Shown here piece after piece: positions 1-9,027 of a stretch of 64,000 nt of DNA. The notes below the pieces were generated by a model. The model saw only the letters and a list, made by a program, of their open reading frames with translations, was not told the DNA's origin and searched no databases. The DNA is from Ancylobacter radicis (GTDB lineage Bacteria > Pseudomonadota > Alphaproteobacteria > Rhizobiales > Xanthobacteraceae), in assembly GCF_018449475.1 (NCBI RefSeq), contig NZ_JAHCQH010000014.1, forward strand, positions 496,001-560,000, given 5' to 3'. Every line of letters starts with the position of its first letter. Positions within the stretch are counted from its first letter, which is position 1. The position numbers and the translations under genes were made by a program.

Positions 1-234
1 CGTCGCGATGACGCAGGTGACGCCGGCCACGATGAGGCTGTTCACCAGCCCGCGCTGGATCGTCGCGTCGTTAAAGATCGCCGCGTACCATTGCAGGCTG
101 AACCCGCCCCAAGGCAGGCTGGGGAAACGGTCGGCGTTGAACGAGAACACGATGGTCGAGACGATCGGCGCGAAGATAAAGGCGAACAGCAGCGCCGTGT
201 AGGCGATGAGAAGGATGCGGCGGAGAGCGGCCAT
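1..234 (-). CDS. ABC transporter permease, PotC-like (3' part beyond window)
   Basis: Inner-membrane permease of a spermidine/putrescine-type ABC importer. Only the first 78 codons lie in the window; the gene runs off the left edge. The N-terminus begins MAALRRILL, followed by a hydrophobic first membrane segment and a segment ending in FSFNADRF and WGGFSLQWY, the usual start of PotC proteins. The ATG at 234-232 lies two bases after the stop of the upstream permease, so the two are translationally coupled. It is the last visible gene of the catabolic operon; an ATPase gene is expected further left but cannot be seen. Confidence 0.85.
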   Translation of the reverse strand, partial: MAALRRILLIAYTALLFAFIFAPIVSTIVFSFNADRFPSLPWGGFSLQWYAAIFNDATIQRGLVNSLIVAGVTCVIAT

Positions 235-236
235 GC

Positions 237-1148
237 TCAGCCTCTCCCCTTGCGCCGGCCATAGGCGAGCGCGATCATCACCAGCATCACCATCATGAGC
301 GTCAGGATCATCGTCGCCGCCACCACCGAGGCGCGCGGCCAGTTATTGCCGGACTTCACCTGATCGGCGATCAGGATGCTCAGCGTCGGCGGCTTGGAAC
401 CGCCGAGATAGGTCGGCGCCACATAGTCGCCGAATGCCAGCACGAAGGCGAAGGTACCGGCCACGATCAGCCCGATCCGCGCGGACGGAATGATCACCTG
501 CCAGATGGTACGAAACCGCCCGCAGCCGAGATTATGCGCCGCCTCGATCAGGATGCGCGGCACGTTGGACAGCGCGAAGGTCTGCAGCAGCACCACGAGC
601 GGGAGGGTCAGCACGAGATAACCCACCACCGTGCCGGTCGGCGTGTTCAGCACCTGCAGCGGCCCGAGCCCGAGCGGCACCAGCACGGTGTTGATGATTC
701 CCTGCGGGCTGAAGAAAATCTGGGTGGAATAGATCCGCACCGGATAGCTGGTGAAGAACGGCACCACCAGCATGAAGATCATCAAGCGGCGCGTCGCCGG
801 GCTCACCTTGTAGGCCAGCGTGTAAGCAGCCGGAAAGGCGGCGAGGCTGGCGATCAGCGCCGTCAGGGCGGAGAGCCAGAACGTGTAGACATAGGCGTTG
901 CGGAAGAAGCCGGCCGTGAGGATGAAGGTCCAGTTCGCCAGCGTGCTGTCTGGCGCCAGGCGGAAATTCCTCACCGACCAGAAGGTCATCGCGATGAGGA
1001 AGCACAGCGGCACCAGGAAGAAGGCGGCCTGCCAGAGCGCCGGCGGCGCTCCCCAGAATACGGCGTAGCGCGCCCTGTTGGCCCACCGCGATGAGGCCGC
1101 CCGTGCGGGTTCGGAGGCTGTGTCCGGCAATGGCAGAGGTTCGCTCAT
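237..1148 (-). CDS. ABC transporter permease, PotB-like
   Basis: A 303-residue inner-membrane permease of the polyamine/opine ABC family. After a short cytoplasmic N-terminus it has about six membrane segments. The cytoplasmic EAA loop that docks the ATPase is visible in the C-terminal half as EAAHNLGCGRFRTIWQVIIP. The ATG at 1148 (MSEPLPLP) was chosen because the frame upstream is Pro/Arg-rich and overlaps the binding-protein gene. It sits between the binding-protein gene and the second permease, in the usual order of these importers. The substrate cannot be read from the permease. From the neighbours it is probably a small cyclic ureide or guanidine, possibly creatinine. Confidence 0.88.
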   Translation of the reverse strand: MSEPLPLPDTASEPARAASSRWANRARYAVFWGAPPALWQAAFFLVPLCFLIAMTFWSVRNFRLAPDSTLANWTFILTAGFFRNAYVYTFWLSALTALIASLAAFPAAYTLAYKVSPATRRLMIFMLVVPFFTSYPVRIYSTQIFFSPQGIINTVLVPLGLGPLQVLNTPTGTVVGYLVLTLPLVVLLQTFALSNVPRILIEAAHNLGCGRFRTIWQVIIPSARIGLIVAGTFAFVLAFGDYVAPTYLGGSKPPTLSILIADQVKSGNNWPRASVVAATMILTLMMVMLVMIALAYGRRKGRG

Positions 1149-1219
1149 GCGGCCTTCGCAGGTGCTGTTCGGGGAAACGGCAGGCGGCACGCGGCCGCCC
1201 GCCGTGATGAGCGGTCGGA

Positions 1220-2383
1220 CTACATCGACTTGAATTCGGACCAGACGTCGTTCCACTGCTCGATGGTCTGCTTCACCGGGGTCTTGCGGATGAAGATCTT
1301 GCCGTCCTTGTACTCGTCCATGACGTTGCGGGCGTCGAAGGTGTGACGCAGCGCCTTGGCGTCGGCGGGGAAGTCCCTGTTCAGCAGTTCCCAGCCCTTC
1401 CTGTTCGGGATCGAGGCCCAGTAGGCCGGCATGTGGGCCGAGCGGACCTGGCCTTCCGGCGAGGACATGTACTGGATGAACGCCTTGGCGAGGTCCTTCT
1501 TGGTGGAGGACGAGACGATCGACATCGACTCGGTCCACTGGATGCCGCCCTCTTCCGGCACGGTGGCGGAAACCGGCACGCCGTTCTGCTGCAGCAGCAG
1601 CACGACCCAGTCGCCGACGCCGGGAATGGCGGCGGCGGAGCCGTTGGTCAGCATCGAGAACTGGTCGGCCATGGAGTAGAAGCCGGCGGTCTGCGGCTTG
1701 AGCGAGAACAGCGTCTCCTTGAGCTTGCCGAAGGCGGCGTCGGAGATGTCGAACGGCGGCTTGTTGCCGTTATACAGGCTCAGGCAGCCCATCGTCGGCA
1801 GGTACCAGTCGAAGAAGCCGAGCTTGCCCTTGATCTTGGGATCCCACAGCGCCTTGTACGACTTCACGTCGGTCTCGGTGAGCATGTCGGTGCGGTAGGC
1901 GATGCCGAGATAACCGAAGCGGATCAGCACCGAATACAGCTCGTCGCCGACCCAGTGCGGCTCGAACTTCTGGAATTCCGGCCAGTAATCGGCCAGCGGG
2001 TAGTCGGCCGGGTTCATCTTGTCGATGAAGCCGCCTTCCTTGAGCATGTGGATGTATTCGGCATCCGCCAGCACCACGTCGAACGAGCCGGGAGGCGACT
2101 GGTTCATCAGCGCCAGCATCGGCTCGCCGCCGACATATTCCTTGGCGACGACCTTGACGCCGTACTTGTCCTCGAACGGCTTCACCACCGCCGGATCGGC
2201 ATGGCCGGGCCAGGAAAGCAGGTTCAGCACCTTGTCCTGCGCGTAGGCCGGCTCCGGGGCCGTGGCGGTAACGCCGAGCGCGGCGGCGCCGGCCAGCGCG
2301 CTGGCGCCCTGCAGCAGGCGGCGGCGGTTCATCGGGTGCAGCAGCCCCCGGAAATCGGTGATCGGACCGTCAAACTCGTTCAT
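1220..2383 (-). CDS. Extracellular solute-binding protein, PotD/PotF-like
   Basis: Periplasmic binding protein of about 387 residues for the adjacent permeases. A twin-arginine-type leader (MNRRRLLQG, then an Ala-rich hydrophobic stretch ending in AYAQ) precedes the mature domain, which begins KVLNLLSWPGHADP as in PotD/PotF relatives. The start at 2383 has a GGAG nine bases upstream. ATGs at 2398 and 2332 are alternatives, and the last would place the RRR directly at the N-terminus. Polyamine-binding proteins also serve for opines and other cationic amides, so the family alone does not fix the ligand. Its place next to hydantoinase and amidase genes suggests it captures their starting compound. 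Confidence 0.87.
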   Translation of the reverse strand: MNEFDGPITDFRGLLHPMNRRRLLQGASALAGAAALGVTATAPEPAYAQDKVLNLLSWPGHADPAVVKPFEDKYGVKVVAKEYVGGEPMLALMNQSPPGSFDVVLADAEYIHMLKEGGFIDKMNPADYPLADYWPEFQKFEPHWVGDELYSVLIRFGYLGIAYRTDMLTETDVKSYKALWDPKIKGKLGFFDWYLPTMGCLSLYNGNKPPFDISDAAFGKLKETLFSLKPQTAGFYSMADQFSMLTNGSAAAIPGVGDWVVLLLQQNGVPVSATVPEEGGIQWTESMSIVSSSTKKDLAKAFIQYMSSPEGQVRSAHMPAYWASIPNRKGWELLNRDFPADAKALRHTFDARNVMDEYKDGKIFIRKTPVKQTIEQWNDVWSEFKSM

Positions 2384-2444
2384 GAACGATGGCTCCATCG
2401 GGAAGGTTGATTATCGAGTCATTGGCCGGCGTTGCGGTGCCGGC

Positions 2445-2478
2445 ATCGGCACGTCACTGAAATCGGCACGTCACTGAA
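2445..2478. repeat. 17-bp perfect tandem duplication across the deaminase stop
   Basis: The unit ATCGGCACGTCACTGAA occurs twice head to tail, at 2445-2461 and 2462-2478. The second copy contains the last codons and the stop (2473-2471) of the minus-strand deaminase gene, and the first lies just downstream. It looks like a recent slippage or repair duplication. The protein is unchanged because the stop comes before the extra copy. Confidence 0.95.
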
Positions 2479-2947
2479 AGGGATCGAAGTCCGGCGAGGC
2501 GGCCCATTCGTCGAGCACCTCACGGGCCGCAGGGCCCAGCAATCGCTCGGCCGGCAGCGCACGATCCTCGACATCCGAGCGGATCATCTTGCGCAGCGGC
2601 GCGACGTCGAGGCCGACTTCCTGGCAATCAGCCAGCGTGTTGGCGTAGTACATCTTCGAAATCTTGGCCCAGAACATCGCCGACGCACACATCTCGCAGG
2701 GCTCGCAGGAGGTGTAGAGCTCGCAGCCGCTGAGATCCCACGTCTTCAGGTTGCGGCCGGCATCGCGGATCGCTTCCATCTCGCCATGGGAGGTCGCGTC
2801 GTGGTTGTTGACCACGTTGTTCACGCCCTCGCCGACGATGACGCCATCCTTGACGATGACGCAGCCGAACGGCCCGCAGCCGTCGGCCCGCAGCCGGTCG
2901 CGACTGATCTCGATGGCGCGGCGCATGAAGAATTCGGGTGTGCTCAT
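2471..2947 (-). CDS. Zinc-dependent nucleobase deaminase-like enzyme (GuaD/CDA fold); candidate creatinine deaminase
   Basis: A 158-residue cytosolic deaminase of the cytidine/guanine deaminase superfamily. The zinc site is visible: H54-G-E56 and P83-C84-E-M-C87, so H54, C84 and C87 should bind zinc and E56 act as proton shuttle. The stretch GPFGCVIVKDG, the NNVV segment before the HGE motif, and LYTSCEPCEMC resemble guanine deaminase GuaD. GuaD and TadA have HAE where this has HGE, a form known in yeast cytosine deaminase. GAGG lies nine bases before the ATG. Its neighbours process N-methylhydantoin-type substrates. Removal of the exocyclic amino group of creatinine would supply exactly that compound, so a creatinine deaminase role is inferred. 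Plain guanine deaminase is the main alternative. Confidence 0.85.
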   Translation of the reverse strand: MSTPEFFMRRAIEISRDRLRADGCGPFGCVIVKDGVIVGEGVNNVVNNHDATSHGEMEAIRDAGRNLKTWDLSGCELYTSCEPCEMCASAMFWAKISKMYYANTLADCQEVGLDVAPLRKMIRSDVEDRALPAERLLGPAAREVLDEWAASPDFDPFQ

Positions 2948-3057
2948 GGAAGAACCTCGAATGGAAAAGTGTTCACGGGAATTGCGGGTCTGGATGACGG
3001 CGATGCGCGTGCGGGGAGCGGCAGAGGCAACAGACGCTTGAGCGCAAACGGTGCGCC

Positions 3058-4845
3058 CTACAGGGACTGGCGTTGCAGCTGGCCTTCCAGTTGCAGCCTC
3101 AGAGCTTCGGTCAGGGCGAGGTCCAGGGTTTCAGCCTCAAGATCGAGAACCACGCCGTAGACATCCCGCGCATTCTCGGGCGAGCAAAAGCCGTCGAGCA
3201 CGTCTTCGAGAACCTTTTGCGGGTCCCGTTCCAGGGGATTGCCGAAGCCGCCGCCGCACGGGCTGTAATAGGCCATCACGTCGTTTCGCCGCACGGCCAG
3301 GCCGTGGAATTTGGAGTGCATCTGACGCGGCGGCTCGGCGGTCTCGATGTTGTAGATCTCGCATTTGCCGGGCGCGCCCTCGTGGCCGCCAAAGATGCCC
3401 CACGGCACATTGCTGTGGCGCTCGCTCTCATGCGTGATGATGCCGTCGGTAAGGATGCGCTGGGCCTTGACGACTCCCATGCCACCGCGGAACCGGCCGG
3501 CGCCCGGCGCCACATCGTCGCGCAGTTCGTAGCGGTCGCAGATCATCGGGATGTGCATGGCCAGATCCTCGATGGGGTTGTTGCGGGTATTGGCCATGAG
3601 ATTGTCGATCGCGTCCGGTCCGTCGGAGCGGGGCCGGCCGCCATAGGCGCCTTCATTGACTTCCAGGAACACCCAGTACTCGCCGTTCGGCTGGACTCCG
3701 GCGTAGGACGCGAACGAGATCGAGGCCGAGGAGCCGGCGATGATTTCGCTCGGCAGAACCGGCGCCATCGCCTTGATGATCAGGTCGATCATGAAGTTGC
3801 ACTGGGTGAAGCGCGCCTCGGCGGAGGCCGGCGCCTCGGGATTGAAGATCGAGCCCTTCGGCGCGATCACGCTTATGGGGCGGAACGACCCCTGGTTCGA
3901 GGGAACCCGCGTCTCCGATGTCGCGGTATCGAGCAGCAATTTGCGGAAGGCGGCGAAGGCGGCAACCTTGGTCGAGCCCTCGAAAGGCACGTTGTAGGCC
4001 GTCGGCGTCTGCGGCGCCGATCCCGTCAGATCGACCTCGACACGATCACCGATCACCCGCACGCACACCTTGACCGGCAGATGCTGGCCGCGATTGCGGC
4101 CATCGTCGTCTAGCCAGCCTTCCGCGCGGTACTCGCCGTCCGGGATGGCGGCGATACGCTGGCGGAGCATGGTCTCCGAATAATCCATGAGCTGGTTGCA
4201 GGCCGAGAAGACGAGATCTTCGCTGTAGCGGTCGAGCAGTTCCTTGAACCGCCGCACTCCAAGGCGGGCGGACGCGATCTGCGCCTCGATGTCGTCCACC
4301 AATTGCCGCGACGCGCGGGAATTGCGGCGGATGAAGCTCCAGATCGTCTCGTTGCGCTTGCCCTTGCGATAGAGCTTGGTGCCGGCGAACAGCATACCCT
4401 CGGCATAGACATCGGGTACGTCGATGATCAGCCCCGGCGTCGCGGCGCCGATGTCGATGTGATGGGCGGTATTGGCCGAGAATCCGACCAGCTTGCCCGC
4501 GTGGAAAATGGGAATGACGATCGCCAGATCGGGCGAATGCGAGGCGCCGAAATAGGGGTGGTTATGCACCACCACGTCATCCTCGCACCACTCGCCATCA
4601 TCGAGCGTTTCGGCAATGCCCCGCAGATAGCCGGGGATCGACCCGATATGCATCGGCGTCGATTCGGATTCGCAAAGCGTGTTGAAATCCGTGTCGAACA
4701 GACCCGCTCCGAGATCCTCGGACTCGCGGATGATGGACGAGAAGGACATGCGGAAAAGCACATGCGCCATCTCTTCCGCGATGGTCTCGATGGCTCCCCG
4801 GATGACCTGCAAGGTGATCGGATCGATTTTCTGAGTGGCTGTCAT
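3058..4845 (-). CDS. hyuB: Hydantoinase B / N-methylhydantoinase B family subunit
   Basis: A 595-residue protein of the HyuB/OplaB family, full length. It begins MTATQKIDPITLQVIRGAIE, the standard start of this family (DPITLEVI...), and has the conserved segments SEDLGAGLFD and HNHPYFGASHSPD. With HyuA it forms an ATP-dependent amidohydrolase that opens five-membered cyclic amides such as N-methylhydantoin or 5-oxoproline. Its start lies 11 bases after the hyuA stop, so the subunits are co-translated. Family membership does not separate N-methylhydantoinase from 5-oxoprolinase or acetophenone carboxylase relatives. The adjacent N-carbamoylsarcosine amidase gene favours N-methylhydantoin. Confidence 0.92.
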   Translation of the reverse strand: MTATQKIDPITLQVIRGAIETIAEEMAHVLFRMSFSSIIRESEDLGAGLFDTDFNTLCESESTPMHIGSIPGYLRGIAETLDDGEWCEDDVVVHNHPYFGASHSPDLAIVIPIFHAGKLVGFSANTAHHIDIGAATPGLIIDVPDVYAEGMLFAGTKLYRKGKRNETIWSFIRRNSRASRQLVDDIEAQIASARLGVRRFKELLDRYSEDLVFSACNQLMDYSETMLRQRIAAIPDGEYRAEGWLDDDGRNRGQHLPVKVCVRVIGDRVEVDLTGSAPQTPTAYNVPFEGSTKVAAFAAFRKLLLDTATSETRVPSNQGSFRPISVIAPKGSIFNPEAPASAEARFTQCNFMIDLIIKAMAPVLPSEIIAGSSASISFASYAGVQPNGEYWVFLEVNEGAYGGRPRSDGPDAIDNLMANTRNNPIEDLAMHIPMICDRYELRDDVAPGAGRFRGGMGVVKAQRILTDGIITHESERHSNVPWGIFGGHEGAPGKCEIYNIETAEPPRQMHSKFHGLAVRRNDVMAYYSPCGGGFGNPLERDPQKVLEDVLDGFCSPENARDVYGVVLDLEAETLDLALTEALRLQLEGQLQRQSL

Positions 4846-4856
4846 GATGATCCCTC

Positions 4857-6929
4857 TCAGGCCCGGGTGATCTTGAGGCTGCCATGCGCCAGCGTCTCGG
4901 CCGTGTAGCCGGGCGGCAGCAGCGTGGTGGAATCGTGCTGGACGAGGATGGCCGGCCCGCTCACCCGCGTGCCGATGCCGAGCTTGCGGCGGTCATAGCG
5001 CGGGGTCATGTGCGTGGAACCGTCGTCGAAGACCGTCGGCCGCTCGTAGAGCCGTGCCCGGTCGAGATCGTCGGGCTGTCCGGGCGCGACAAGCGGCAGC
5101 GCGAGATGCGGCACGCGCGCCGTAGCGATGACGCGGATGTTGTAGAGTTCGACCAGGCTGTCGTCGAAGGCATAGCCATAATCGGCCACATGCATCGCGT
5201 GGAAGGCGGCGATGACCGCGGACTTGTTCGCGCGCGTCAGCCGGCCCTCGATCACCGGCACGCGCAGTTCGAAGCCCTGGCCGTGATAGCGCACCTCGGC
5301 CACCACCTCGAAGACCCGGCTCTCGGGGGCGACGCCGTCATTGTCGAGTTCGTGGCGACCCGCCGCGCTCAGTTCGTCGATCACCGCGTTGACGCGGTCG
5401 AGGGCCGGCTGGTCGGCGGTAAAGAGCGGGGTGATGACCGAGCGCGTGTGCTCATATTGCAGATCGGTGCCGAGCAGCCCCATGGCGGCGGTGATGCCGG
5501 GCGAGACCGGCACGATCACGTCGCGGGCAGCGACGAGTTCGGCCAGCGCGACGCCGTGGAAGGGACCGGCCCCGCCGAAGGGCATCAGCGAGAAGTCGCG
5601 GGGGTCATAGCCGCGCGCAACGGAATTGGCGCGGATGGTGAGAGCCATGTTGTTGTTGACGACGCGAATAATGCCCAGCGCCGCCTCCACCACCGAAAGG
5701 CCCAGCGGCTCGGCGATCTTTTCGCGGATTGCCTTTTCGGAGAGCGCGGGGTCGAGCGGCAGGTCGCCGCCGAGGAACTTGTCGGCATCCATGCGCCCCA
5801 GAACGACCTGCGCGTCCGTCACGGTCGGCTCCGTGCCGCCACGCCCGTAACAGGCCGGGCCCGGTTCCGAGCCGGCGGAGCGCGGGCCGACATTGAAGCC
5901 TCCGGCGGTATCGATGAAGGCGATCGAGCCGCCCCCTGCCCCGATGGTTTCGAGGTCGATCATCGGCGCCATCACGGCATGGCCGGACACCACCGTGTCG
6001 CGGGCATTCTTGATACGGAAGCGCCCCCCCGTGACCATGGAAATGTCGGCCGACGTGCCGCCGATATCGATGGTGAGGATGTTGTCGATGCCGGCGAGGC
6101 GGGCTTCGGCCAGCGCCCCCAGAACGCCGCCCGCCGGGCCGCTCATCAGGATACCGACCGGTTTTTTCACGCAACCGTCAATAGTGGCGATGCCGCCATT
6201 CGACTGAATGACGCGCAGCTTGGCGGCAATGCCGGCCTCGCTGACCTTACGTTCGAGATTTCGCAGGTAGAGCGCCGATTTCGGGCCGACGAAGGCGTTC
6301 ATCGCCACGGTGGAGAAACGCTCATATTCGCGGATCACATTTGCCACTTCCGAGGAGATCGACACATAGGCGTCGGGAATCTCCTCAAGCACGATCTCGC
6401 GGGCCCGCCTCTCGTGCCGGCTGTTCAGGAAGGAGAACATGAAGCCGATGCAGATCGAACGAAGCCCGCGCCGGCGGAAGAGGGCGCAGGCCTCGCGGAC
6501 CTCGGCTTCCGCCAGTTCGACCTCCACCTCCCCGGTCGGCGGCAGGATGCGCTCGGTAATCGCAATCCGGTTGCGCCGCTTGACCAGCGGATGGCTTTGC
6601 CATGGCACATCGAAGTGAAGCGAAAAATTGTGCGGGCGCTTGTGACGGCCAATATGCAGGATGTCGCGAAAGCCGCGCGTGGTCAGCATCCCGACCTCAG
6701 CGCCATTGTGCTCGATCGTGATGTTGGTCGCGACCGTCGTGCCGTGGGCGATGACGTCCACGCTCTCCTTGGCGACGCCGGCGATGTCACAGATCTGCAG
6801 GACGCCCTCCACCACGGCGATCGACTGATCCTTCGTCGTGCTCGGCACCTTGTGGAAGAAGATTCCCTTGTCGCATTCCAGGACGAGGTCGGTGTTCGTG
6901 CCGCCGACGTCCACGCCAATTCGCGCCAT
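4857..6929 (-). CDS. hyuA: Hydantoinase A / N-methylhydantoinase A family subunit
   Basis: A 690-residue ATP-binding subunit of the hydantoinase/oxoprolinase family. Two nucleotide-binding signatures of the ASKHA fold are visible: GVDVGGTNTDL at residues 5-15 and TIDIGGTSADIS near residue 290. A glycine-rich segment with GAGGGS follows. The enzyme couples ATP hydrolysis to opening of a cyclic imide. The ATG at 6929 is preceded by GAGGAATTGAG; the frame upstream of it is an Arg-rich non-coding extension. The gene sits directly between the amidase and hyuB genes in one operon. Expected product with N-methylhydantoin: N-carbamoylsarcosine. Confidence 0.92.
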   Translation of the reverse strand: MARIGVDVGGTNTDLVLECDKGIFFHKVPSTTKDQSIAVVEGVLQICDIAGVAKESVDVIAHGTTVATNITIEHNGAEVGMLTTRGFRDILHIGRHKRPHNFSLHFDVPWQSHPLVKRRNRIAITERILPPTGEVEVELAEAEVREACALFRRRGLRSICIGFMFSFLNSRHERRAREIVLEEIPDAYVSISSEVANVIREYERFSTVAMNAFVGPKSALYLRNLERKVSEAGIAAKLRVIQSNGGIATIDGCVKKPVGILMSGPAGGVLGALAEARLAGIDNILTIDIGGTSADISMVTGGRFRIKNARDTVVSGHAVMAPMIDLETIGAGGGSIAFIDTAGGFNVGPRSAGSEPGPACYGRGGTEPTVTDAQVVLGRMDADKFLGGDLPLDPALSEKAIREKIAEPLGLSVVEAALGIIRVVNNNMALTIRANSVARGYDPRDFSLMPFGGAGPFHGVALAELVAARDVIVPVSPGITAAMGLLGTDLQYEHTRSVITPLFTADQPALDRVNAVIDELSAAGRHELDNDGVAPESRVFEVVAEVRYHGQGFELRVPVIEGRLTRANKSAVIAAFHAMHVADYGYAFDDSLVELYNIRVIATARVPHLALPLVAPGQPDDLDRARLYERPTVFDDGSTHMTPRYDRRKLGIGTRVSGPAILVQHDSTTLLPPGYTAETLAHGSLKITRA

Positions 6930-7000
6930 CTCAATTCCTCGCCTGTTGGTTCGCCTTTCCGTCCGGGAGCGCGGCCGCTTCGGGCGGCCGCGCCGGCGGA

Positions 7001-7714
7001 TCAGGCCGCGGCGCGCTGGAGGCCGTTGAGGTAGGCGACGCAGGTGTCGACGGTCTCGACATCCGCGAATTTGGCGTCGATATCGAAGAGGTTCCACGCC
7101 ACCGCACCCGGCACGCGGTCGCCGATGCATTCCTTGACCGCGATGGTGCGGAAGCCGTCCGCGAGACCATCGCAGATCGTCTGGCGCACGCAGGCACAGG
7201 CGGTGACGCCCGTCACCATGATGGTATCAATGTCGTTGGCGCGCAGAATTCCCGCGAGTTCGGTGCCGTGGAAGGCCGAGGCCCGCTTCTTCAGCAGCGT
7301 GTATTCGCCGGGAACCGGGGCGATGCGGCTGTCGATCGCCCACAAGTCCTTGTTGGCGATGTCGACGACTTCGATCGGGATCTTGCAATGCCACAGACCC
7401 ATGTCGGTGAAGGCCGATGTGCGGTCGGGGATCTCATAGGCCGTGGTGACGTGCACGACCGGAATGCCATTGGCCCGGCAGGCCGCGAGCAGCTTCTGCA
7501 TGCCGGGAATGATCTCGCCGTTCATCTTCTCCTGATCGCAGGTGAAGGGATTGCCCGGCCGCGTCCAGGCATTGGCCAGATCGACGCTGATAAGAGCGGG
7601 ACGGGAGCCGAAGCCGACGCGGCGCTGGAAGCCGCGTTCCTTGTAGAGCTGAGACGCAGTCTCAAAGGCTTGCTGCAACATGCGATCGAGGGCTGCGTTG
7701 TCGATTTCGGTCAT
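7001..7714 (-). CDS. N-carbamoylsarcosine amidohydrolase-like (isochorismatase family)
   Basis: A 237-residue cysteine amidohydrolase of the isochorismatase fold. The family triad can be placed at D45 (in ISVDLANAW), K142 (in LLKKRASAF) and C175 (in TACACVRQT). The N-terminal third (YKERGFQRRVGFGSRP, then DLANAWTRPGNPF) closely follows what I recall of Arthrobacter N-carbamoylsarcosine amidohydrolase, as do MGLW and GDRVPG. That enzyme converts N-carbamoylsarcosine to sarcosine, CO2 and ammonia. AGAGGA lies nine bases upstream of the ATG. It is the first gene of the operon, facing the LysR gene. Other isochorismatase-like amidases are possible, but the match outside the active site makes them less likely. 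Confidence 0.88.
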   Translation of the reverse strand: MTEIDNAALDRMLQQAFETASQLYKERGFQRRVGFGSRPALISVDLANAWTRPGNPFTCDQEKMNGEIIPGMQKLLAACRANGIPVVHVTTAYEIPDRTSAFTDMGLWHCKIPIEVVDIANKDLWAIDSRIAPVPGEYTLLKKRASAFHGTELAGILRANDIDTIMVTGVTACACVRQTICDGLADGFRTIAVKECIGDRVPGAVAWNLFDIDAKFADVETVDTCVAYLNGLQRAAA

Positions 7715-7809
7715 GGTCGTGGTCCTCTGCAAGGCGTCCAACGGGCGGGTGCAGCCTGGCCCTCGGCAATCTTTCGGACGCCTCCAGGGCAGGTAAGCAC
7801 CGTGTTGAT

Positions 7810-7837
7810 GCCTAGATTGAGGGCAAGCCTATCTTGA
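7810..7837. promoter_or_regulatory. Candidate LysR operator: direct repeat over the lysR -35
   Basis: Two 11-bp copies, GCCTAGATTGA (7810-7820) and GCCTATCTTGA (7827-7837), match at 9 of 11 positions with a 17-bp period. The interrupted palindrome CAAG-N5-CTTG (7824-7836) lies within. The second copy runs into the -35 hexamer of the proposed lysR promoter. LysR regulators commonly bind such paired half-sites in a divergent intergenic region and repress themselves. Binding by this LysR is inferred. Confidence 0.4.
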
Positions 7838-7864
7838 CGCCATTGCCGTCTTCCCCATTATTAT
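7834..7864 (+). promoter_or_regulatory. Candidate promoter of the lysR gene
   Basis: TTGACG at 7834-7839 resembles a sigma-70 -35 element. An AT-rich ATTATTAT run at 7857-7864 provides the -10 (17-19 bp spacer depending on register). The predicted leader to the lysR ATG is about 65 bases. Confidence 0.45.
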
Positions 7865-7935
7865 GGACGAAATGACATCAATGCCGCGCCCGCCTTTCCG
7901 CCCGACCTTGGCGCCGCCGGACCATGAGACCGCCA

Positions 7936-8847
7936 ATGTCTGCGCTGCCCAATTCCCGCGACATTGAAGCGTTCAACGTCGTGGCGATGGAGCTGAGTTT
8001 CCGGCGCGCCGCCGAGCGGCTGGCGATCGACCAGAGTGCGCTGTCGCGGCGCATCCGTCAGATGGAGGAACTGCTCGGCTATCAATTGATACGTCGCACC
8101 ACGCGGGAGGTGTCGCTGACGGCGGCGGGCGAGATCTTCCACGAGCGCACGCGCCTGCTGGGCAGCACCATTCAGTCAGCCGTTCATTCGGCGCGCATTG
8201 CCGCCGAGGGAAAGAAGGGGCAATTGCGGGTCGGCTATATGTCGTTTGCCGCCATCGAAGCGATGCCGCGGGTCGTGCACGAATTCACCCGGCTCTATCC
8301 CGAAGTTGACCTGACGCTGAAATACATCCGCACCCAGGGTCAGAAGATCGACCTTGCGCGCAATGACATCGATGTCGGCTTCATGCTGGGCCCGTTCGCG
8401 CACCCGCAGTTCGAGACGCAGCCCATCTCGCTGGAACCGCTGGTCGCGGTTCTGCCGATGGAGCACCGCCTGTCGACGCGGGAGAGCGTGACGCTGGAAG
8501 AACTGGCGCGTTTTCCCCTGGTGCTCGGCAGCATGTCGGAATGGGACTTCTTCCGCCCGCTCGTCGTCGACATTTTCGCGCGCGCCGGCATCAGCATCGA
8601 GGCGAGGTACGAGATCTCCGACGCGATGGGGATACTCGGTCTTGTCGGCAGCGGGATCGGCGTGTCCGTCTACTCGCACGGCATCGTGCGCTTCCAGCCG
8701 CGAACGGTGGTCACCAAGCCGATCGCCGACGCATCCGCACGGATCGAGACGCTGCTGGTCTGGAACCGCGCCTATCGCAGCCACGCGCTCACCAATTTCA
8801 TCGGCGTGGCGCGGTCGATCTATGGACGCGAGGGGATCATCTACTGA
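7936..8847 (+). CDS. LysR family transcriptional regulator
   Basis: A 303-residue regulator with an N-terminal winged helix-turn-helix (residues about 5-65, including ELSFRRAAERLAIDQSALSRRIRQ and LTAAG) and a C-terminal periplasmic-binding-like effector domain (from about residue 90, GQLRVGYMSF). It is transcribed away from the hydantoinase operon across a 221-base gap, the usual arrangement for a LysR activator of the neighbouring genes. The inducer is probably an intermediate of the pathway. The ATG at 7936 was chosen; one at 7924 in the same frame adds four residues and neither has a strong ribosome-binding site. Confidence 0.93.
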   Translation: MSALPNSRDIEAFNVVAMELSFRRAAERLAIDQSALSRRIRQMEELLGYQLIRRTTREVSLTAAGEIFHERTRLLGSTIQSAVHSARIAAEGKKGQLRVGYMSFAAIEAMPRVVHEFTRLYPEVDLTLKYIRTQGQKIDLARNDIDVGFMLGPFAHPQFETQPISLEPLVAVLPMEHRLSTRESVTLEELARFPLVLGSMSEWDFFRPLVVDIFARAGISIEARYEISDAMGILGLVGSGIGVSVYSHGIVRFQPRTVVTKPIADASARIETLLVWNRAYRSHALTNFIGVARSIYGREGIIY

Positions 8848-8935
8848 TCGACCGAAGAGGCGCACATCTTCGAATCTCGACTTCGCCTCAGAAGGCAAAT
8901 CGACGGGAAGCGGGGTGCCCAGATCGGGACTGAAA

Positions 8936-9027
8936 TGGCGGAGACGGAGGGATTCGAACCCTCGAGGCCCTTTTGGGGGCCTGCTCATTTAGCAAACGAG
9001 TGCCTTCAGCCTCTCGGCCACGTCTCC
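8936..9027 (-). tRNA. tRNA-Ser(GCT)
   Basis: Read on the minus strand, the 92-base gene has a 7-bp acceptor stem (GGAGACG with CGTCTCC), an anticodon arm with the loop TTGCTAA giving anticodon GCT (codons AGC and AGT), a long variable arm with GGCCC/GGGCC pairing typical of serine tRNAs, and a T-arm with GGTTCGAATCC. The discriminator is G and the 3' CCA is encoded. Confidence 0.97.

Follow-up and report, generated by a model that had tools for sequence, protein, structure and literature searches.

A putative catabolic cassette for creatinine and creatine in Ancylobacter radicis, with a candidate creatinine deaminase of the cytidine deaminase fold

Which compound feeds an operon of Ancylobacter radicis in which genes for an amidase, a two-subunit hydantoinase and a zinc deaminase are followed by those of a transporter? 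The operon lies at the beginning of the 64,000-nucleotide stretch of DNA that was analysed (the window, G000:C6:496001-560000), where an initial annotation described seven co-directional genes with a divergent LysR gene and proposed a route from creatinine or a related cyclic guanidine to sarcosine. All of these genes are present, with the operon on the minus strand; it is cut by the start of the window and extends past it, the remainder of the PotC gene, a PotA gene and a creatininase-family gene being found further along the same contig. The cassette consists of ten genes: the divergent LysR gene and nine co-directional genes that encode, in order from LysR, the amidase, HyuA, HyuB, the deaminase, PotD, PotB, PotC, PotA and the creatininase, with spacing between successive operon genes that ranges from 110 bp down to a 4-bp overlap. 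It is fairly likely to be a catabolic cassette for creatinine and creatine. Its genes are as follows, in window coordinates unless the contig is named; pLGM is a plasmid of Ancylobacter pratisalsi.

7924..8847, plus strand, LysR-type regulator (Pfam HTH_1, LysR_substrate), divergent from the operon
7001..7714, minus strand, N-carbamoylsarcosine amidohydrolase-type amidase matching 1NBA, 237 amino acids from an ATG that agrees with the pLGM annotation, in a frame open to 7741
4857..6929, minus strand, HyuA, large subunit of the ATP-dependent N-methylhydantoinase type, matching 7hk5
3058..4845, minus strand, HyuB, small subunit of the same type, matching 7hk5 residues 699-1277
2471..2947, minus strand, cytidine-deaminase-fold zinc deaminase, candidate creatinine deaminase (Pfam PF00383, relative of GuaD, AlphaFold model)
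1220..2398, minus strand, PotD-type binding protein of an ATP-binding cassette (ABC) importer (SBP_bac_8); the pLGM annotation uses the second Met as start
237..1148, minus strand, PotB-type permease (BPD_transp_1), ATG at 1148
1..234, minus strand, PotC-type permease, 5' part in the window; full gene G000:C6:495434-496234 (L003:11434-12234)
C6:494346-495437 (L003:10346-11437), minus strand, PotA-type ATPase outside the window, continuing the operon
C6:493497-494285 (L003:9497-10285), minus strand, creatininase-family gene outside the window (1J2T match, TIGR04448)

The compound would be taken in by the PotABCD-type ABC importer, and creatine and creatinine would be interconverted by the creatininase-type enzyme, as its homology suggests. 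In what is the weakest step of the proposal, the deaminase of the cytidine deaminase (CDA) fold may convert creatinine to N-methylhydantoin and ammonia. HyuAB would then use ATP to open the ring of N-methylhydantoin, giving N-carbamoylsarcosine, which the amidase would hydrolyse to sarcosine, CO2 and ammonia; both of these predicted steps are well supported by homology and context. Oxidation of sarcosine would fall to a heterotetrameric sarcosine oxidase whose genes lie elsewhere in the genome, where two soxA homologues are present. The LysR protein probably regulates the operon.

From N-methylhydantoin to sarcosine

The two steps from N-methylhydantoin to sarcosine are very probably encoded by the HyuAB and amidase genes, judging from comparison with solved enzymes. 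HyuA aligns with residues 1-685 of the solved 1288-residue N-methylhydantoinase 7hk5 (E 2.8e-194, 650 bits) and HyuB with residues 699-1277 (E 1.3e-176, 592 bits), so that the two proteins are homologous over their length to the two halves of this characterised enzyme. The next chain, 6yra, which we take to be caprolactamase, scores 420 bits with HyuA and 212 bits with HyuB, and caprolactamase was rejected as a name for HyuAB at 568 and 247 bits (NF050156, NF050157) against a cut-off of 1000. The N-termini of the N-methylhydantoin hydrolase of Pseudomonas putida 77 agree with P. denitrificans proteins that are 692 and 594 amino acids long (table in PMC8453981, in part). A plasmid of P. denitrificans (L184) encodes an amidase 80% identical to that of the cassette, a HyuA of 692 amino acids that is 66% identical, and a HyuB for which 594 amino acids corresponds to one among several possible starts; from species and length, these Hyu proteins are presumably those of the table.

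The best solved relative of the amidase is the N-carbamoylsarcosine amidohydrolase of Arthrobacter, 1NBA (E 1.7e-73, 51% identity). Its residues C177, D51, K144 and R202, which we take to be catalytic, are kept as C184, D54, K151 and R209 in the 246-residue numbering of the amidase. Identity over aligned segments is 37% to 26ST, deposited under the name N-carbamoylsarcosine amidohydrolase, and 31% to 3OT4. RutB and biuret hydrolase were rejected as names, their scores being far under the NCBIfam cut-offs. The initial description of this enzyme as N-carbamoylsarcosine amidase-like is thereby borne out, and the sequence comparison does not group it with other isochorismatase-type enzymes.

Comparison of operon content among relatives, with neighbourhoods mostly scored by phmmer with chosen queries and with several contigs short, places homologous modules next to sarcosine oxidase and creatinase. 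A single region of Mesorhizobium sp. B2-1-8 encodes two creatinases (annotated as M24 metallopeptidases and named here by profile score), creatininase, LysR, PotDBCA, sarcosine oxidase, glyA and serine ammonia-lyase, and continues with LysR, amidase, HyuA, HyuB and an NCS1 transporter. In Azoarcus KH32C, a stretch of about 20 kb contains creatinase, creatininase, PotDBCA, HyuAB and amidase. When 289 genomes of the class were searched, amidase matches at E 1e-60 or better were found in 17 genomes at 20 places; at the 19 outside the A. radicis genome, soxA is present in four (L105, L106, L108, L177), HyuA in two (L111, L183) and neither in 13, some on short contigs. By comparison, none of 118 deaminase rows among the matches listed has soxA in its locus. 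HyuAB is near the amidase in five of seven plasmid records, among them an Azoarcus record in which about 4 kb with other genes intervenes, and sarcosine oxidase in two, both Mesorhizobium; two Paracoccus records have neither nearby. On Mesorhizobium and Paracoccus plasmids, too, the homologous amidase gene is flanked by a divergent LysR gene, with a product 44-46% identical to the LysR of the cassette.

Creatininase, importer and deaminase

The creatininase matches 1J2T at E 1e-79 and TIGR04448 at 374 bits, over the cut-off of 235. It is 50% identical to the P. putida enzyme and retains E34, H36, D45, H120, E122, W154, W174, H178 and E183, nine of eleven checked positions that we take to represent the metal and substrate region. 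In a census of 385 genomes, creatininase matches at E 1e-65 or better occurred in 11. At loci outside the A. radicis genome with at least 48% identity, PotD is present in five of nine (L104, L116, L117, L190, L193) and was not seen in L192, L194 and L195, L191 being a 3.8-kb contig; nor was it seen at two loci of 44-45% identity or at the second creatininase of A. radicis. PotDBCA, creatininase and creatinase occur together in L193 (creatinase match E 5.6e-238), and the same set is found in L117, where the contig ends in PotB. The second creatininase of A. radicis (G000:C20:177820-181212; L112:6821-10213) has Ile at the W174 position and adjoins two ureohydrolase/agmatinase-type genes, a pairing of creatininase and ureohydrolase also found in L195. 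Two Creatinase_N proteins are encoded in the genome, one nearer DoeA (2.4e-35) than creatinase (1e-10) and the other judged by reading alone to be an Xaa-Pro aminopeptidase.

Because the HyuAB match, the creatininase and the sarcosine oxidase and creatinase genes in the neighbourhoods of relatives agree independently, creatinine or creatine is probably the starting compound and sarcosine the product. The initial proposal of creatinine or a related cyclic guanidine is thus supported, with creatine or creatinine as its likeliest form and a related cyclic guanidine as a less probable one.

The PotD-type protein of the importer scores 66 bits against the NCBIfam model of PotD (NF007048), for which the cut-off is 582, and PotC scores 163 bits, also under its cut-off. 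The residues W34, S83, Y85, D168, W255 and D257 of E. coli PotD presumably form the spermidine site; in the cassette protein, W34 and W255 are kept, S83 is replaced by Asp, Y85 and D257 by Glu, and D168 falls in a gap. The 14 other rows of the alignment, from which three short duplicate loci were omitted, have Asp at 83 and Glu at 257 in all cases, Glu at 85 in 13, Trp34 in 13 and Trp255 in all 14, L116 being the exception at both 34 and 85. Among 41 PotD matches in the plasmid collection, 22 have at least 43% identity (H52-H73), and creatinase lies within 4 kb of PotD in 13 of these (H57-H69). The remaining nine comprise the pLGM copy (H52), records with AHS (amidohydrolase-superfamily) genes (H53), with a CDA-fold deaminase (H54-H56) or with a CodA-type deaminase (H71), and three with no creatinase, deaminase or AHS gene beside PotD (H70, H72, H73). 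From this genomic context we infer that the PotABCD-type transporter imports creatine or creatinine.

The deaminase belongs to Pfam PF00383, with zinc motifs HGE (residues 54-56) and PCEMC (83-87), and its AlphaFold model (mean predicted local distance difference test score 91.8) matches CDA-fold chains, for which reasons a CodA-type identity within the amidohydrolase superfamily was rejected. Its best solved relative by sequence is GuaD of Bacillus subtilis (1TIY/1WKQ), with 43% identity over 123-124 structurally aligned residues. It shares the CDA fold and zinc motifs with GuaD but has V115 in place of Asp114, which we take to be an important position, and lies in a separate clade, with GuaD across a 100/99 branch. 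The name GuaD was rejected on these grounds although the HxE and PCxxC motifs are present, as was TadA (NF008113; 77 bits against a cut-off of 150). The initial annotation had assigned a gene to each step: for HyuAB and the amidase this is upheld by solved relatives, whereas the first step depends on a predicted substrate for a deaminase that is not CodA.

The context of the deaminase is suggestive. Among the matches listed, to which all deaminase counts refer, creatininase and a PotABCD-type importer accompany each of the five nearest relatives whose neighbourhood is known, two of which are near-identical. Of the rows that lack the GuaD Asp114 (that of A. radicis included), 10 of 24 have PotD nearby and 6 of 24 creatininase, versus none of 92 for either gene among the rows that have it; these loci were picked by similarity to the cassette deaminase and are therefore non-random, same-genus loci are non-independent, and two rows are omitted (the GuaD-type paralogue of A. 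radicis and the near-identical pLGM copy). The 80 loci kept are mostly GuaD-type, and closer orthologues certainly exist beyond them. No deaminase orthologue was found in ten genomes searched around G160. On balance, the CDA-fold protein is somewhat favoured as a creatinine deaminase unrelated to CodA.

Other CDA-fold proteins were noted in comparable settings. Loci with PotDBCA and creatininase hold another such deaminase at L190:10854-11318 and L193:3300-3761, which on reading resembles yeast cytosine deaminase. At L027:3-7166, a relative of the cassette deaminase is found with PotDBCA; the neighbouring genes, on reading, resemble hydantoin racemase, PuuE and ureidoglycolate lyase, a hint that other branches of the family may act on ureides. 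In A. radicis itself, a guanine-deaminase-type paralogue (L003:8386-8868) is on the opposite strand 628 bp past the creatininase gene, tail to tail with it; it has the FDD motif and a long tree branch and is outside the block shared with pLGM.

Alternative substrates and enzymes

Several observations weigh against creatinine as the substrate. Only two complete copies of the gene set, those of A. radicis and pLGM, are among the matches listed; soxA was not seen at 15 of the 19 amidase loci; and no deaminase was found in the Mesorhizobium or Azoarcus regions bearing HyuAB and amidase. Within the 24 rows of the deaminase clade, extra AHS genes are near eight, HyuA near just two (those of A. radicis and L162; p 0.04) and soxA near none. 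From these contexts, the substrates of the deaminase family probably cover a broader range. Pairs of PotDBCA and deaminase without creatininase occur in Variovorax, Agrobacterium and R. leguminosarum. The creatininase has Met for Y121 and Glu for D175, and is one of six members of a clade (100/100) that is separate from that of the P. putida and creatinase-linked enzymes (100/99), so that it may act on a compound related to creatinine instead. These features of the creatininase, the extra AHS genes, the unpaired PotDBCA-deaminase sets and a cyclase/amidase pair in related clusters (below) would all suit an operon not for creatinine itself but for a cyclic guanidine or amino-heterocycle akin to it, processed by a distinct creatininase-like enzyme and a distinct CDA-fold deaminase, with HyuAB and the amidase finishing an N-substituted hydantoin. 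We consider this unlikely, since the best matches of HyuAB and the amidase are to N-methylhydantoin and N-carbamoylsarcosine enzymes, relatives of these proteins sit with sarcosine oxidase and creatinase, and most of the checked creatininase positions are kept. An ordinary hydantoin, pyrimidine or biuret-type ureide operon taken for a creatinine operon is very improbable: RutB, biuret hydrolase, 5-oxoprolinase and caprolactamase do belong to the isochorismatase-type and HyuAB-type families, but they score far under the N-carbamoylsarcosine amidase and N-methylhydantoinase matches, and those with NCBIfam models are below cut-off.

With creatinine taken as the substrate, the deaminating enzyme must also be weighed. 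The genome has a CodA-like gene (G000:C20:88707-89978) with a product 57% identical to the CodA-like protein of L036, and a Terrarubrum cluster holds both a CodA-type and a CDA-type deaminase; creatinine deamination is therefore not necessarily the task of the CDA-type protein. CodA is, moreover, the creatinine-degrading enzyme named for Corynebacterium glutamicum (PMC8864220, in part). It is nevertheless improbable that the CodA-like enzyme deaminates creatinine and that the operon deaminase is carried along with some other base as its substrate, since the codA-like gene is outside the operon and adjoins an ABC transporter read as BMP/nucleoside-type, whereas the CDA-fold gene has its place between HyuB and PotD and, in the five subclade loci mentioned above, is found with creatininase and a PotABCD-type importer.

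Mobility, variants and known pathways

The cassette lies in an 11,354-bp block that is 96.6% identical to plasmid pLGM. Two further features define its surroundings:

1..8866, no strand, window part of the block shared with pLGM; whole block G000:C6:493513-504866
8936..9027, minus strand, tRNA-Ser (GCT), about 70 bp past the end of the shared block

The block ends 16 nucleotides inside the 3' end of the creatininase gene and 19 bp beyond the LysR stop codon, and the two 32-kb stretches compared (A. radicis and pLGM) have no further match at E 1e-20 outside it. Because identity is high and the ends are sharp, the block appears, from the sequence, to have been transferred recently between replicons as a single unit. 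The tRNA-Ser gene at its end is a possible insertion site; a duplicate of the tRNA-Ser end sought on the far side of the cassette yielded just matches of 9-13 bases, at chance level, and the block ends have no direct repeats of note and no repeated attachment site. Plasmid pLGM also carries urease accessory genes, at a distance of about 4 kb from its copy of the cassette (L119:1-2652).

In Ancylobacter mangrovi and Ancylobacter sp. Lp-2, cyclase-family and amidase-signature genes replace amidase-HyuA-HyuB and are followed by deaminase, PotDBCA, an amidohydrolase and creatininase. One such variant cassette, with this pair instead of HyuAB and the N-carbamoylsarcosine amidase, is at L024:7753-17003. 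The pair may, as a hypothesis, consist of unrelated enzymes for the same ring-opening and carbamoyl-removal steps. A more speculative and rather doubtful idea is that the deaminase, the Met121-type creatininase and the PotABCD-type importer form a co-evolved core for a natural cyclic guanidine, undescribed as a bacterial nutrient, which is joined here to the N-methylhydantoin module and in A. mangrovi to the cyclase-plus-amidase pair.

A pathway of creatinine deaminase, N-methylhydantoinase and N-carbamoylsarcosine amidohydrolase is known from P. putida 77 and Arthrobacter. Its biochemistry is partly stated in PMC4417704 and in portions of PMC6742649 and PMC8453981. The cassette has homologous HyuA, HyuB and amidase and the same order of steps, but its deaminase has the CDA fold and is not CodA, and its operon also includes a creatininase and an ABC importer. 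In C. glutamicum ATCC 14067 (creT-crnA, cshA, hyuB, codA), creatininase CrnA, CodA, HyuB and the N-carbamoylsarcosine amidase CshA are proposed to lead to sarcosine (PMC8864220, in part). The proposed steps follow the same logic as here; the difference is that C. glutamicum has several units under AmtR, with CreT, CrnT and CodA, whereas in the cassette a single operon with its LysR gene combines the PotABCD-type importer and the CDA-fold deaminase. Mesorhizobium plasmid regions L201 and L121 share amidase-HyuA-HyuB and a divergent LysR with the cassette, and L201 also PotDBCA and creatininase; they differ from it in carrying creatinase and sarcosine oxidase, and neither region showed a deaminase. 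Where the gene of the creatinine-deaminating enzyme is named, it is CodA or cytosine deaminase (PMC8864220 and PMC6742649, each in part), and cytosine deaminase is among creatinine-associated genes in PMC5364220. A literature search by titles and abstract openings, covering few subscription journals, returned nothing on a CDA-fold creatinine deaminase or on a PotABCD-type importer of creatine or creatinine.

The chemistry of the pathway is thus known, and the cassette is a variant of it with an unusual candidate for the deaminase, of the CDA fold, and a probable dedicated importer in the same operon. Roseobacter denitrificans lacks a CreT homologue yet can grow on creatine, and there may be further routes of uptake (PMC8864220, in part); a PotABCD-type importer encoded next to creatinase and creatininase offers a concrete candidate for such CreT-independent uptake. 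If the deaminase assignment is true, some genes labelled guanine deaminase or TadA would carry the wrong name, and creatinine sensing and removal could draw on a second enzyme family, unrelated to the first.

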